32,592 bases of DNA. It comes from Chloroflexota bacterium (lineage in GTDB: Bacteria; Chloroflexota; Dehalococcoidia; DSTF01; RBG-16-68-14). The translations under genes were made by a program, and so were the position numbers. The notes beneath the pieces were generated by a model that ran no database searches, had not been told where the DNA came from, and worked only from the letters and a program-made list of their open reading frames with translations. The DNA is taken from the NCBI GenBank assembly GCA_022570885.1, contig JACZYW010000007.1:1-32592 (forward strand). The letters are read 5' to 3'. Below, piece after piece: positions 1,729 through 7,406 of this stretch (the stretch's first letter is position 1; each line of letters begins with the position of its first letter).

Positions 1729-1805
1729 TGGAGCCAGCGAAGGGAATCGAACCCTTGACCTGTCGATTACGAATCGACTGCTCTACCAGACTGAGCTACG
1801 CCGGC
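1729..1805 (-). tRNA. tRNA-Thr (anticodon CGT), with encoded CCA
   Basis: Minus strand GCCGGCGTAGCTCAGTCTGGTAGAGCAGTCGATTCGTAATCGACAGGTCAAGGGTTCGATTCCCTTCGCTGGCTCCA folds as a cloverleaf: acceptor GCCGGCG/CGCTGGC, anticodon stem GTCGA/TCGAC with loop TTCGTAA, T-arm GGTTCGATTCC. Confidence 0.93.
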
Positions 1806-1825: not shown

Positions 1826-2012
1826 GCTACAGTGGGTCTCTAGGCGCGACGGGTCGCCGTCCTTGCCATAGTTAGACGCCATGCACGAAGTGCTACGAGT
1901 GCACGCGCCGGAGGAGCTACAGTGGGTCTCTAGGCGCGACGCGTCGCCGTCCTTGCTATACTGGGCGCCATGAGCGAAGTGCTACTTGTGGAGGCGACGG
2001 AGGAGCTGCAGC
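1826..2012 (+). repeat. Imperfect ~90-bp tandem duplication covering the promoter and first codons of the downstream regulator gene
   Basis: GCTACAGTGGGTCTCTAGGCGCGACGsGTCGCCGTCCTTGcyATA... starts at 1826 and again at 1916. Similarity continues through ATGcaCGAAGTGCTAC versus ATGagCGAAGTGCTAC to GGAGGAGCT.CAG. Confidence 0.92.
1957..1962 (+). promoter_or_regulatory. -10 element TATACT giving a near-leaderless transcript of the regulator
   Basis: TATACT at 1957-1962 lies 7 nt before ATG at 1970, so the expected start point is at or next to the A of the ATG. Confidence 0.5.
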
Positions 2013-2638
2013 CGCTGGCCGAGGAGCTGGAGCGAGCCGGCTTCAGCGTTAGCGCCTGCCCCTGGGCCGAGGTGGCCGAGCGGGTCTCGAACGGCGGGCC
2101 TATCGATCTGCTCCTCGTCAACCTGATGGATCGGGCTACCGACGCAACGATCCGCGAGCTGCTGCGGGCGGACGTGGTTCCTCCCCGTACCGCCACCATC
2201 GCCATTTTGCACCATCGAGAGCTGGCCGACCTGGACCCGGCGCTGTCGCTGGACGACTTTCTGGTCTACCCTGCGCCGGCCGAGGAGCTCATGGCCCGCG
2301 TCCGACGGGCCATCTGGCGTCGGGCGGGCGCCGAGGGCTCCCACCTGCTGCGCCGCGGTGACCTAACGATCGACCAGGCGAACTACAAGGTGTTCGTCGG
2401 TGGCCGGCCCGTCCAGTTGACGTTCAAGGAGTACGAGCTGCTGCGCTTCCTGGCGCAGAACCACGATCGGGTCTGCACTCGCGAGACGCTGCTCAACCGG
2501 GTGTGGGGGTACGATTTTTACGGCGGCGGCCGCACCGTCGATGTGCACATCCGACGCTTGCGCAGCAAGATCGAGGACAGCTCGCACACCTTCATCGAGA
2601 CGGTGCGCAACGTCGGCTACCGCTTCCGCGCCGGCTAA
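1970..2638 (+). CDS. OmpR/PhoB-family winged-helix transcriptional regulator with degenerate receiver domain; GlnR-like
   Basis: C-terminal QLTFKEYELLRFLAQNHDRVCTRETLLNRVWGYDFYGGGRTVDVHIRRLRSKIEDSSHTFIETVRNVGYRFRAG is a trans_reg_C domain. The receiver lacks the acidic pair and the expected phosphoacceptor Asp. It sits next to amtB-glnK-glnA. Confidence 0.88.
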   Translation: MSEVLLVEATEELQPLAEELERAGFSVSACPWAEVAERVSNGGPIDLLLVNLMDRATDATIRELLRADVVPPRTATIAILHHRELADLDPALSLDDFLVYPAPAEELMARVRRAIWRRAGAEGSHLLRRGDLTIDQANYKVFVGGRPVQLTFKEYELLRFLAQNHDRVCTRETLLNRVWGYDFYGGGRTVDVHIRRLRSKIEDSSHTFIETVRNVGYRFRAG

Positions 2639-2773: not shown

Positions 2774-4090
2774 ATGATAGATTCCGGCGATACAGCGTGG
2801 ATGCTCATGTCCACGGCTCTGGTGATGCTGATGACACCAGGGCTGGCATTTTTCTATGGTGGGTTGGTCCGTAGCAAGAACGTCCTGAGCACGATGATGC
2901 ACAGCTTCATCGTCATCGGGATCATCGGCGTGTTATGGGTCGTCGTCGGCTATACGCTGGCCTTCGGGCCGGACGCGGGCGGAGGGCTTATCGGCAATTT
3001 TGACTACTTTGGCCTGAAGGATGTCGGCCAGGAACCGGGGCCGTATGCCCCTACGATTCCACACCTGGTGTTCATGGTGTTTCAGATGACGTTCGCCATC
3101 ATCACGCCGGCGCTCATCACGGGCGCCTTCGCGGAGCGGGCGAAGTTTGGCCCGTTCCTGCTCTTTATGGCGGTCTGGTCGCTCGTCGTCTATGCGCCTA
3201 TCGCCCACTGGGTCTGGGGAGACAGCGGCTGGCTGCTCGAATACGGCGCGCTCGACTTCGCCGGTGGAACGGTCGTGCACATCAACGCGGGCGCTGCGGC
3301 GCTTGTGGCGGCGCTGCTCTACGGAAAGCGCCGAGGCTATGGCAAAGACCCGATGGAGCCGCACAACATCCCGTTCGTGCTCTTGGGCGCGGCGTTGCTC
3401 TGGTTCGGCTGGTTTGGCTTTAACGCAGGCAGTGCGCTCGGTGCGAACGGCGTCGCTGCGAACGCCTTCGTCGTCACCTTCGTCGCGGCGTCGACGGCAA
3501 TGGTGACCTGGGTGCTCTTGAGCTGGCAGCTCAACGGCAAGCCCAGCGCAGTTGGGGCGGCAGCAGGCGCTGTTGCTGGCCTGGTGGCGATTACACCGGC
3601 CGCAGGATTCGTCGATACGATGCCGGCGATCGCGATTGGTGTCGGCGCCGGAGCGTTCTGCTACGGCGCGGTCCAGTTGCGGATCAAGCTGAAACTGGAC
3701 GATTCGCTCGATGTCGTCGGCGTGCACGGCGTGGGCGGCGCCTGGGGCGCGTTCGCGACGGGCATCTTTGCCGTCGCCACGGTTGGAGGCGGCGCTGGCC
3801 TCATTGACGGGGAAGCGAGCCAGATGGGCCGACAGCTCGTCGGCATTGGCGCTACTATGGGCTACTCCTTCGTGATGACATTTATTATCCTCAAGGTGAT
3901 CGATAAGCTCTTCGGGCTGCGCGTTTCCGATGACGAGGAGGAGATCGGCGTCGACGCCGCGCAGCATGGCGAGCGTGGCTACGTGTTTGAGATTGGTGGT
4001 ACCGGGTTCGTTGGTATCCCAGAGGCGGCAGCCGAGCCTGCTGCGAGTGAGGCTCCCGCGCCGGCAGGCTCCGGCGGCGGCGGCCTGTAA
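2774..4090 (+). CDS. amtB: Ammonium transporter Amt
   Basis: MIDSGDTAWMLMSTALVMLMTPGLAFFYGGLVRSKNVLSTMMHSF..., GAFAERAKF, D...HVHGVGGAWG. ATG at 2774 is preceded by AAAGGGG; the ORF track starts at TTG 2765. Confidence 0.95.
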   Translation: MIDSGDTAWMLMSTALVMLMTPGLAFFYGGLVRSKNVLSTMMHSFIVIGIIGVLWVVVGYTLAFGPDAGGGLIGNFDYFGLKDVGQEPGPYAPTIPHLVFMVFQMTFAIITPALITGAFAERAKFGPFLLFMAVWSLVVYAPIAHWVWGDSGWLLEYGALDFAGGTVVHINAGAAALVAALLYGKRRGYGKDPMEPHNIPFVLLGAALLWFGWFGFNAGSALGANGVAANAFVVTFVAASTAMVTWVLLSWQLNGKPSAVGAAAGAVAGLVAITPAAGFVDTMPAIAIGVGAGAFCYGAVQLRIKLKLDDSLDVVGVHGVGGAWGAFATGIFAVATVGGGAGLIDGEASQMGRQLVGIGATMGYSFVMTFIILKVIDKLFGLRVSDDEEEIGVDAAQHGERGYVFEIGGTGFVGIPEAAAEPAASEAPAPAGSGGGGL

Positions 4091-4444
<354 letters not shown>

Positions 4445-4486: not shown

Positions 4487-5926
4487 GTGACACCTGAAGA
4501 CATTGCGGAAGTTACGAAGCTCATCAAAGAGAAGAACATCTTGATCGCTGACCTAAAGTTCAACGATCTGCCCGGCCTCTGGCAGCACTTTTCGATGCCT
4601 ATCTCAGAGCTGACTGAGATGGACGATCTGACCACGAGCATCTGGGTGGATGGCGTCGGCTTCGACGGGTCCAGCATTCGCGGGTTTCAGAAGATCCAGG
4701 AGAGCGATATGATCCTCATCCCGGATCCCAAGTCCGCTCGCCTGGACCCGATCCTGAAAGTGCCCACGCTGAGCGTTATCTGCGACATCTACGATCCGCT
4801 CACCCGTAAGCCCTACAGCAGGGACCCACGCTATATCGCCAAGAAAGCGGAGGAGTACCTCAAGTCCACCGGCATCGCCGATACCAGCTACTGGGGGCCG
4901 GAGGGAGAGTTCTTCATCTTTGACGATGTCCGCTTCGACCAGACTGAGAACTCAGGCTACTATCTCATCGACTCGGTCGAAGGCGAGTGGAACAGCGGCC
5001 GGCAAGAGAACCCCAACTTGGGCTACAAGCCTCGCTTCAAGGAAGGCTACTTTCCCACGCCACCGCATGACTCATTCCATGACCTCCGGACCGAGATGAT
5101 CCTGACGATGGCCGAGGTTGGCATTAAGGTGGAAGTTCACCACCACGAGGTCGCTACTGCCGGCCAGGCCGAGATCGATGTGAAGTTCGATTCACTCTTG
5201 AGCATGGCCGACACGATGATGTGGTATCGCTATATCATCAAGAACGTCGCCCGCAGGAACAACAAGGTCGTAACGTTCATGCCCAAGCCGCTCTTCGGCG
5301 ATAACGGCTCCGGCATGCACACTCACCAGAGTCTGTGGAAGGGCGATACGAACACGTTCTTCGATGAGAAGGGCTACGCGCTCCTTAGCGAAACGGCGAA
5401 GCACTACGCCGGCGGGCTCCTGAAGCACGCTCCGGCTCTGATGGCGTTCTGCGCGCCCACCACCAACTCCTACAAGCGGCTGGTGCCTGGCTTCGAGGCG
5501 CCCGTGAATCTGGTCTACTCCGCCCGCAACCGGAGCGCCGCGGTACGCATTCCGATGTATACGGATAACCCCAAGAGCAAGCGGCTGGAGTTTCGCCCGC
5601 CGGATAACGCCTGCAACCCATACCTGGCCTTCCCCGCCATGCTCATGGCGGGCCTGGATGGCATCCAGAACGGCATCGATCCAGGAGAGCCGCTGGAGAA
5701 GAACACCTACGAGCTCACTCCAGAGGAGCAGGCGAACATGCGCACCGTCCCTGGCTCTCTGGAGGAGGCGCTCGATGCCCTGGAGGAGGACCACGAGTTC
5801 CTGCTAAAGGGCGATGTCTTCACACAGGACGTGCTGGACGTCTGGATCGAATTCAAGCGGGAGCAGATCGCCGCCGTTCAGCTTCGGCCTCACCCGTATG
5901 AGTTCCACCTGTATTTCGACGTCTAG
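4487..5926 (+). CDS. glnA: Glutamine synthetase type I (GSI-beta-like), GTG start
   Basis: [71 protein letters not shown]-terminal [13 protein letters not shown]. Confidence 0.97.
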
Positions 5927-5988: not shown

Positions 5989-6042
5989 GTAACCCGTTCG
6001 TAACCTGCGCGGTAACTCTACGTAACGTGTCGCGCCTATAAT
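5989..6042 (+). promoter_or_regulatory. Four-GTAAC operator plus -10 TATAAT upstream of the second glutamine synthetase
   Basis: GTAAC at 5989, 6000, 6012 and 6022 (spacings 11, 12, 10); TATAAT at 6037-6042. Confidence 0.72.
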
Positions 6043-6080: not shown

Positions 6081-7406
6081 ATGGACGACCCGCGCGAATT
6101 CGTACTGCAGACCTGCAAGGATCAGGACATCAAGTTCATCCGCTTCTGGTTCACCGACATCCTCGGCTCTCTCAAGAGCTTCGCCATCACCGTCGAGGAG
6201 CTGGAGCAAGCGATGCAGGAAGGGATGGGCTTCGACGGCTCCTCGATCGAGGGGTTCGCCCGCATCGATGAGTCGGACATGGTGGCGATGCCCGACGCGA
6301 CGACGTTCCAGATCCTGCCCTGGCGTCCGCGCGAGCGAGGCGTGGCGCGCATGTTTTGCGACATCCTGATGCCCGATGGCTCACCGTTCGAGGGAGACCC
6401 CCGCTACGTGCTGAAGCGCAACCTGAAGCGCGCGGCGGACCTGGGCTTCACCTTCTACGTCGGGCCGGAGCTCGAGTTCTTCTACTTCAAAAACTCCCAA
6501 GGCACCGAGCTCCTGGACGCCGGCGGCTACTTCGACCTGACCCCGCTGGACGCGGCCAGCGACCTGCGTCGCCAGACGGTGCTCACGCTGGAGGAGATGG
6601 GCATCGGCGTCGAGTATAGCCATCACGAGGTGGCCCCCAGCCAGCACGAGATCGATCTGCGCTACACCGACGCCCTCACCATGGCCGATAGCGCCATGAC
6701 CTATCGACTGGTGGTGAAGGAGGTGGCCATGGCCAACGATGTCTACGCCACCTTCATGCCGAAGCCAATCGCCAGCGAGAACGGCTCTGGCATGCACGTG
6801 CACCAGTCGCTCTTCAAGGGCGAACGCAACGCCTTCTTCGACGCGGAGGATCCCTACCACCTCTCGTCCCTCGCCAAGGCGTACATCGCCGGACTGATGC
6901 GCCATGCCGCGGAGATTACGCTGATTACCAACCAGTGGGTCAACTCCTACAAACGGTTGGTACCGGGATACGAGGCGCCGGTCTACATCACCTGGGCGCG
7001 GCGCAACCGGTCGGACATGATCCGCATACCGGAGTACAAGCCGGGCAAGGAGGTAGCGACGCGCATCGAATATCGCGTGGCCGATCCCGCGTGCAACCCC
7101 TACCTCGCCTTCGCCGCCATGCTCGCCGCCGGGTTGGCAGGCATCGAGGGTGAGTACCCGCTGCCGGAGCCGACGGAGGAGAACGTGTTCGAGATGAGCG
7201 AAGAGGACCGTCGGGAGCGGGGCATCGAAGTGGTGCCCGGCACCCTCCACGAGGCGATCCAGGCCGCTGAGGAGAGCGAGCTGTTGCGTACCTGCCTGGG
7301 CGACCACGTCTTCGAGAGCTTGATCAAGAACAAGAAGATCGAATGGAACGACTATCGCATGCACGTGACCGACTTCGAGCTCGACCGGTACCTGAGCGTG
7401 CTGTAA
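6081..7406 (+). CDS. glnA: Glutamine synthetase type I, second paralogue (GSI-alpha-like)
   Basis: MDDPREFVLQTCKDQDIKFIRFWFTDILGSLKSFAI..., [73 protein letters not shown] upstream. Confidence 0.96.
   Translation: MDDPREFVLQTCKDQDIKFIRFWFTDILGSLKSFAITVEELEQAMQEGMGFDGSSIEGFARIDESDMVAMPDATTFQILPWRPRERGVARMFCDILMPDGSPFEGDPRYVLKRNLKRAADLGFTFYVGPELEFFYFKNSQGTELLDAGGYFDLTPLDAASDLRRQTVLTLEEMGIGVEYSHHEVAPSQHEIDLRYTDALTMADSAMTYRLVVKEVAMANDVYATFMPKPIASENGSGMHVHQSLFKGERNAFFDAEDPYHLSSLAKAYIAGLMRHAAEITLITNQWVNSYKRLVPGYEAPVYITWARRNRSDMIRIPEYKPGKEVATRIEYRVADPACNPYLAFAAMLAAGLAGIEGEYPLPEPTEENVFEMSEEDRRERGIEVVPGTLHEAIQAAEESELLRTCLGDHVFESLIKNKKIEWNDYRMHVTDFELDRYLSVL

Follow-up and report, generated by a model that had tools for sequence, protein, structure and literature searches.

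In the Actinobacteria, the OmpR-type regulator GlnR activates glnA and recognizes a published four-repeat DNA box (gTnAc-n6-GaAAc-n6-GtnAC-n6-GAAAc; PMC10704036). The GlnR dimer is held by a charge network of Asp50, Arg52, and Thr9 (PMC12632262, PMC10704036), and in mycobacteria a four-GlnR complex holds RNA polymerase (PMC10704036). HP1043, ChxR, RitR, and other atypical OmpR-family pseudo-receivers work without aspartyl phosphate (PMC12632262).

Nitrogen regulation is little described amongst the Dehalococcoidia, a group within the Chloroflexota that includes the organohalide-respiring Dehalococcoides and marine SAR202 bacteria. A literature search found no report on GlnR in the Chloroflexota or Dehalococcoidia, which is weak evidence of novelty. 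Here, an OmpR-type regulator adjoining amtB was explored within a 32,592-nucleotide stretch of a Chloroflexota genome (contig JACZYW010000007.1; hereafter, the window). The regulator is probably a GlnR-type transcription factor of the Dehalococcoidia, predicted to act on the putative promoters of the amtB-glnK-glnA genes and of another glnA copy.

Results

The regulator ORF (1970–2638, + strand) encodes an OmpR-type protein of 222 amino acids, with a start codon backed by the exact N-terminal alignment of four close orthologs. A pseudo-receiver (residues 1–118) precedes a winged-helix DNA-binding domain (residues 126–220), the latter identified as the OmpR/PhoB domain described in an earlier note on this DNA by a Pfam Trans_reg_C match of 98.7 bits on residues 145–219. 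There was no Pfam match to Response_reg in the N-terminal half of the regulator, though four ordinary response regulators scanned in like manner matched this model with E-values of 1e-29 to 1e-34. AlphaFold2, supplied with 30 orthologs, returned a confident two-domain model of a beta-alpha receiver and a winged helix (mean pLDDT, 89.4), in which the orientation of the domains is unsure (pTM, 0.58).

Downstream and on the same strand are ORFs for the ammonium transporter AmtB (2774–4090; homologs in 48 of 60 genomes), the PII protein GlnK (4103–4444; syntenic in relatives), and two glutamine synthetases, glnA1 (4487–5926; homologs in 37 of 60 genomes) and glnA2 (6081–7406; syntenic in relatives), with amtB and glnA2 as predicted targets. 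These are followed by NADH dehydrogenase genes on the opposite strand. No histidine kinase gene is adjacent to the regulator in the window, in agreement with the earlier description of a regulator lacking a partner kinase, a statement limited to linked kinases. In one relative (L045, G002:C53), an additional amtB-glnK pair has been inserted ahead of the standard amtB, downstream of the regulator, and this pair has an extended box to itself, with five or more repeats.

A TATACT -10 element for the regulator gene (1957–1962, + strand) occurs 7 nt before the ATG. As TATACT-N7/8-ATG is kept in all five family members, the regulator mRNA is probably leaderless in its own family; in the neighboring family f4, TATACT lies further upstream, with space for a leader. 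The regulator promoter and the first ~14 codons are spanned by a 90-bp tandem duplication (1826–2011; 96% identity over 45 nt and 83% over 46 nt), in the upstream copy of which the -10 reads CATAGT, a decayed form of TATACT, and the ATG is false. A tRNA-Thr (CGT; 1729–1805, minus strand) is directly upstream of the duplicated promoter.

Receiver positions were read from an alignment with 25 ordinary response regulators, using CheY numbering. The position of the phosphoacceptor (CheY D57; D in 25/25 ordinary response regulators) is occupied by N51, that of T87 (T in 24/25) by L80, and that of K109 (K in 25/25) by Y100, while the acidic pair D12 (D/E in ordinary response regulators) and D13 (D) corresponds to E8 and A9. 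Of the five catalytic positions, only E8 is still acidic, such that the loss of the acidic pair claimed previously holds for its second member alone, and the claimed loss of the phosphoacceptor Asp was borne out. The regulator therefore lacks the complete PhoB/RegX3-type active site (Asp, Thr, and Lys replaced by N51, L80, and Y100, respectively) and has a non-catalytic pocket as in GlnR, with the second acidic residue, the Thr, and the Lys gone (A9, L80, and Y100). Across 30 orthologs, the phosphoacceptor column contains N (n = 9), D (n = 9), S (n = 5), E (n = 3), A (n = 2), C (n = 1), and H (n = 1), and Lys109 is retained in two. As the residue varies freely, the column is under no constraint as a phosphoacceptor. 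Judged from its sequence, normal aspartate phosphotransfer would be impossible for this receiver. Two distant orthologs (L024 and L025) retain both the active-site Asp and the Lys (LKP) and are possible intermediates between a working receiver and a pseudo-receiver.

In the OmpR family, the alpha4-beta5-alpha5 face is the dimer surface, as known from PhoB. The residues of this face (D95/D96, E106, and R110) are 93–100% kept in the orthologs, and the receiver of the regulator may be maintained for dimerization, not phosphotransfer. The Asp50-Arg52-Thr9 network, of which the D and R are present in 16/16 actinobacterial GlnR rows, is missing from the regulator, where the corresponding residues include N51 and M53.

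The closest solved proteins by single sequence, ortholog profile, and fold were the GlnR structures 8hig and 8hih, ahead of RegX3 (ortholog-profile scores of 187 and 185 bits vs. 158 bits). The top fold match of the model was 8hih, GlnR in the M. tuberculosis transcription complex (E-value, 1.3e-17; 35% identity), with the structures of RitR and HP1043 ranked below GlnR. A full-length tree of 114 proteins separated 96 GlnR-type rows (actinobacterial GlnR, an Acidimicrobiia group, Omnitrophota, Dehalococcoidia, and the studied regulator) from 18 ordinary response regulators encoded in the same genomes with a branch support of 100. To guard against mutual attraction of decayed receivers, a second tree was constructed from the DNA-binding domain only, to which RegX3, 7e1b, and five regulators of other Chloroflexota were added. 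GlnR-type and ordinary regulators remained separate, with a support of 94–95, under the starred level. Structure, profile, and phylogeny thus all place the regulator with GlnR, as the earlier note had supposed, and in both trees it is apart from the ordinary response regulators.

The DNA-binding domains of the regulator and GlnR have several marks in common, GG[x]RTVDVH[IV]RRLR and RNVGY or RSVGY with a shorter loop, in place of which ordinary regulators possess RGVGY. The winged helix is 55–59% identical to that of actinobacterial GlnR; the receiver half is just 21–27% identical, no nearer than to ordinary receivers. With the Pfam GlnR_1st model, the regulator scored 15.3 bits, under the cut-off of 27, compared to 19.5 bits for the ordinary RegX3 and 39.2 bits for a relative (L018), and the cut-off was exceeded in 3 of 30 genomes. 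This score was rejected as proof of membership, as RegX3 and an ordinary regulator score equally high. The stretch 'LDDFLVYPAPAEELMAR' (LDDFLVYP), previously likened to GlnR, was likewise rejected as a GlnR mark, as ordinary response regulators conserve D95/D96, E106, and R110 to the same degree and the motif is generic to them. The GlnR-specific evidence consists of the DNA-binding domain and the DNA boxes. At the level of primary structure, the regulator and actinobacterial GlnR are seen to descend from a single branch of the OmpR family.

Both of the putative operators named in the earlier note consist of four GNAAC-type repeats with the 11-bp period of the published GlnR pattern. Upstream of amtB, the box GTAAC-n6-GTAAC-n6-GAAAC-n6-GAAAC (2667–2704, + strand) is kept in sequence and place in four close relatives with an ortholog, and is followed after 11 bp by a putative -10 (TAGAAT; 2716–2721, + strand), a spacing also kept in relatives. 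No separate -35 was recognized in the amtB promoter, and this is the sole full match to a box plus -10 in the genome. Upstream of glnA2, a second box, GTAAC-n6-GTAAC-n7-GTAAC-n5-GTAAC (5989–6026, + strand), has its third repeat shifted by 1 bp and is followed after 10 bp by a putative -10 (TATAAT; 6037–6042, + strand); the box also occurs in two related genomes (G004 and G002), with the same 10-bp spacing to TATACT. As the boxes end 10–11 bp before the -10, they would stand where a -35 is normally found, an arrangement to be expected if an activator were to hold RNA polymerase there. By chance, 0.07 matches to a four-repeat box are expected in the window. The two boxes are the only such sites in the genome (2.3 Mb) at one mismatch, with zero sites for a reversed-pattern control; across 60 genomes, there were 13 exact four-repeat sites and none for the reversed control.

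The regions upstream of amtB were scored against the literature consensus for actinobacterial GlnR, with a threshold of 20 out of 29. Scores of ≥20 occurred before amtB in 24 of 30 loci compared to 11 of 180 control stretches, and the high-scoring loci include the majority of those from family f4, in which amtB and the regulator gene are unlinked. Of 26 genomes with the regulator, 23 had a box before amtB, compared to one of four lacking it (Fisher p = 0.018, uncorrected for relatedness). The exceptions are three of the 26 AmtB loci from regulator-carrying genomes, where the score was <20, and one box in a genome of 54% completeness in which no regulator was detected. Beyond the two sites, scans of the regulator's own genome for three repeats and for two repeats plus a -10 were at background (91%-complete genome; weak sites would escape). 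The designation "master regulator" in the earlier note is therefore not supported, as only two box-bearing promoters were found in the genome, both in this locus. Additional sites in another genome (G039; L073 and L074) had no recognized nitrogen gene beside them.

With a gap in the scores, above about 128 bits, as the cut, clear orthologs were counted in 45 of 60 sampled Dehalococcoidia genomes, including that of the studied regulator, and 24 of 46 ortholog copies lie no more than 1.5 kb from amtB or glnA. Two genomes assigned to this class share an identical protein or contig with named records (G033 with Dehalococcoidia bacterium UBA2247, and G043 with a groundwater Chloroflexi MAG), on which basis the window was placed in the Dehalococcoidia. 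The regulator is also present in the small single-contig genomes of family f17, several of which have amtB with an adjoining box. In a phylum-wide draw of 251 genomes, every match >200 bits was from the Dehalococcoidia. No GlnR-type genes were found among about 220 genomes of Chloroflexota beyond the Dehalococcoidia, and the best such matches examined were ordinary regulators whose active sites are complete. Genes of the GlnR type are also present in MAGs of Omnitrophota, Armatimonadota, and Latescibacterota (L144, L148, L153, L157, L164, L168, and L175), and the family is therefore wider than the Actinobacteria and Chloroflexota. A GlnR-type gene on the contig of a Massilia (Betaproteobacteria) isolate (L136:3983–4714), beside a non-ribosomal peptide synthetase, falls within the Dehalococcoidia f4 branch and was probably acquired by gene transfer.

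Discussion

The tree, the fold, the DNA boxes, the target genes, and the loss of the catalytic residues together support the kinship with GlnR and the independence from phosphorylation that the earlier note had proposed, and the prediction of a phosphorylation-independent, local nitrogen regulator of GlnR type outside of the Actinobacteria is well supported. Because the Asp50-Arg52-Thr9 network is absent (N51) and the Pfam receiver cut-off is missed, the regulator, which is predicted to act like GlnR and to share its descent, is called a variant of GlnR rather than a plain GlnR.

In the proposed mechanism, the receiver would dimerize without phosphate via the alpha4-beta5-alpha5 face, on which D96, E106, and R110 are kept. 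Constitutive dimers, two per box, would occupy the four repeats, which are arranged head to tail, substitute for a -35 element, and recruit RNA polymerase at the amtB-glnK-glnA and glnA2 promoters, such that nitrogen shortage would lead to more ammonium uptake and glutamine synthesis. Nitrogen status may reach the regulator through its amount, its modification, or the neighboring GlnK, which, being encoded two genes away from the regulator, is a candidate signal partner and no more; in actinomycetes, the nitrogen signal to GlnR is likewise unsettled (PMC12632262, PMC10704036). More speculatively, and with a rather low probability, the Dehalococcoidia may operate GlnR in another, independent manner, in which the dimer forms without the Asp50-centered network and nitrogen status is conveyed to the pseudo-receiver by a protein or metabolite, with GlnK as the obvious candidate.

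Several other explanations can be weighed against a GlnR-type activator. An ordinary PhoB- or RegX3-type response regulator may have lost its kinase and active site, with a receiver decayed in convergence with GlnR. The best general NCBIfam matches, to PhoB and MtrA models (all far under cut-offs), and the low identity of the receiver to GlnR agree with such an origin, and degenerate receivers, which evolve fast, could attract each other in a tree. It is nonetheless improbable, as the DNA-binding domain alone still joins GlnR and carries the same marks, the boxes fit the GlnR code and targets, and the decay is old, being common to the 45 genomes with orthologs. It is more improbable still that a different OmpR-type regulator binds the GTAAC boxes and that the pseudo-receiver protein has another role. 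Further response regulators are encoded in the genome and binding of this protein to the boxes is a prediction, but the regulator gene and the box co-occur across genomes, and in many families the regulator is tightly linked to amtB or glnA.

Assuming a GlnR-type regulator bound at these boxes, it is unlikely, though slightly less so, that it acts as a repressor, or as both repressor and activator, with boxes that overlap the -35 region and block RNA polymerase under nitrogen excess. The distance of the boxes to the -10 means that the -35 position is covered, and in actinomycetes GlnR does repress some targets, both of which count towards repression. Activation is favored by the lack of a recognizable -35, as expected where an activator substitutes for it, and by the activation of glnA and amtB by GlnR in actinomycetes.

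A GlnR-type activator in this lineage would extend this type of regulator and its DNA code to the Chloroflexota. Orthologs with N, S, E, A, or D at the position of an Asp that is essential in actinobacterial GlnR provide a natural experiment, and their comparison could address a long-standing question, namely how GlnR is switched when it is not phosphorylated.

Amongst known systems, the GlnR of Firmicutes (MerR family) and NtrC are nitrogen regulators of different families, and the former has only a name in common with the type described here. HP1043, ChxR, and RitR, which are pseudo-receivers as well, differ from the studied regulator in lineage and targets. The phosphorylated regulators RegX3, PhoB, and MtrA share the domain layout, the winged-helix fold, the conserved alpha4-beta5-alpha5 face, and binding sites of 11-bp direct repeats, but keep D-D, D57, T87, K109, and the RGVGY loop and form a separate branch of the full-length tree (support, 100). 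Compared to the GlnR of Streptomyces, Amycolatopsis, and Mycobacterium (8hig and 8hih), the regulator belongs to another phylum and adjoins amtB, has an Asn for the phosphoacceptor Asp at a position free to vary in the clade, does not keep Arg52, has a receiver under the GlnR_1st cut-off, and is associated with only two boxes seen in this genome, compared to the global regulon of GlnR. In common with actinobacterial GlnR, it possesses an OmpR-type winged helix with the RNVGY and short-loop marks, a non-catalytic receiver with no partner kinase nearby, and predicted four-repeat gTnAc/GaAAc boxes with an 11-bp period at the same amtB-glnK and glnA targets.
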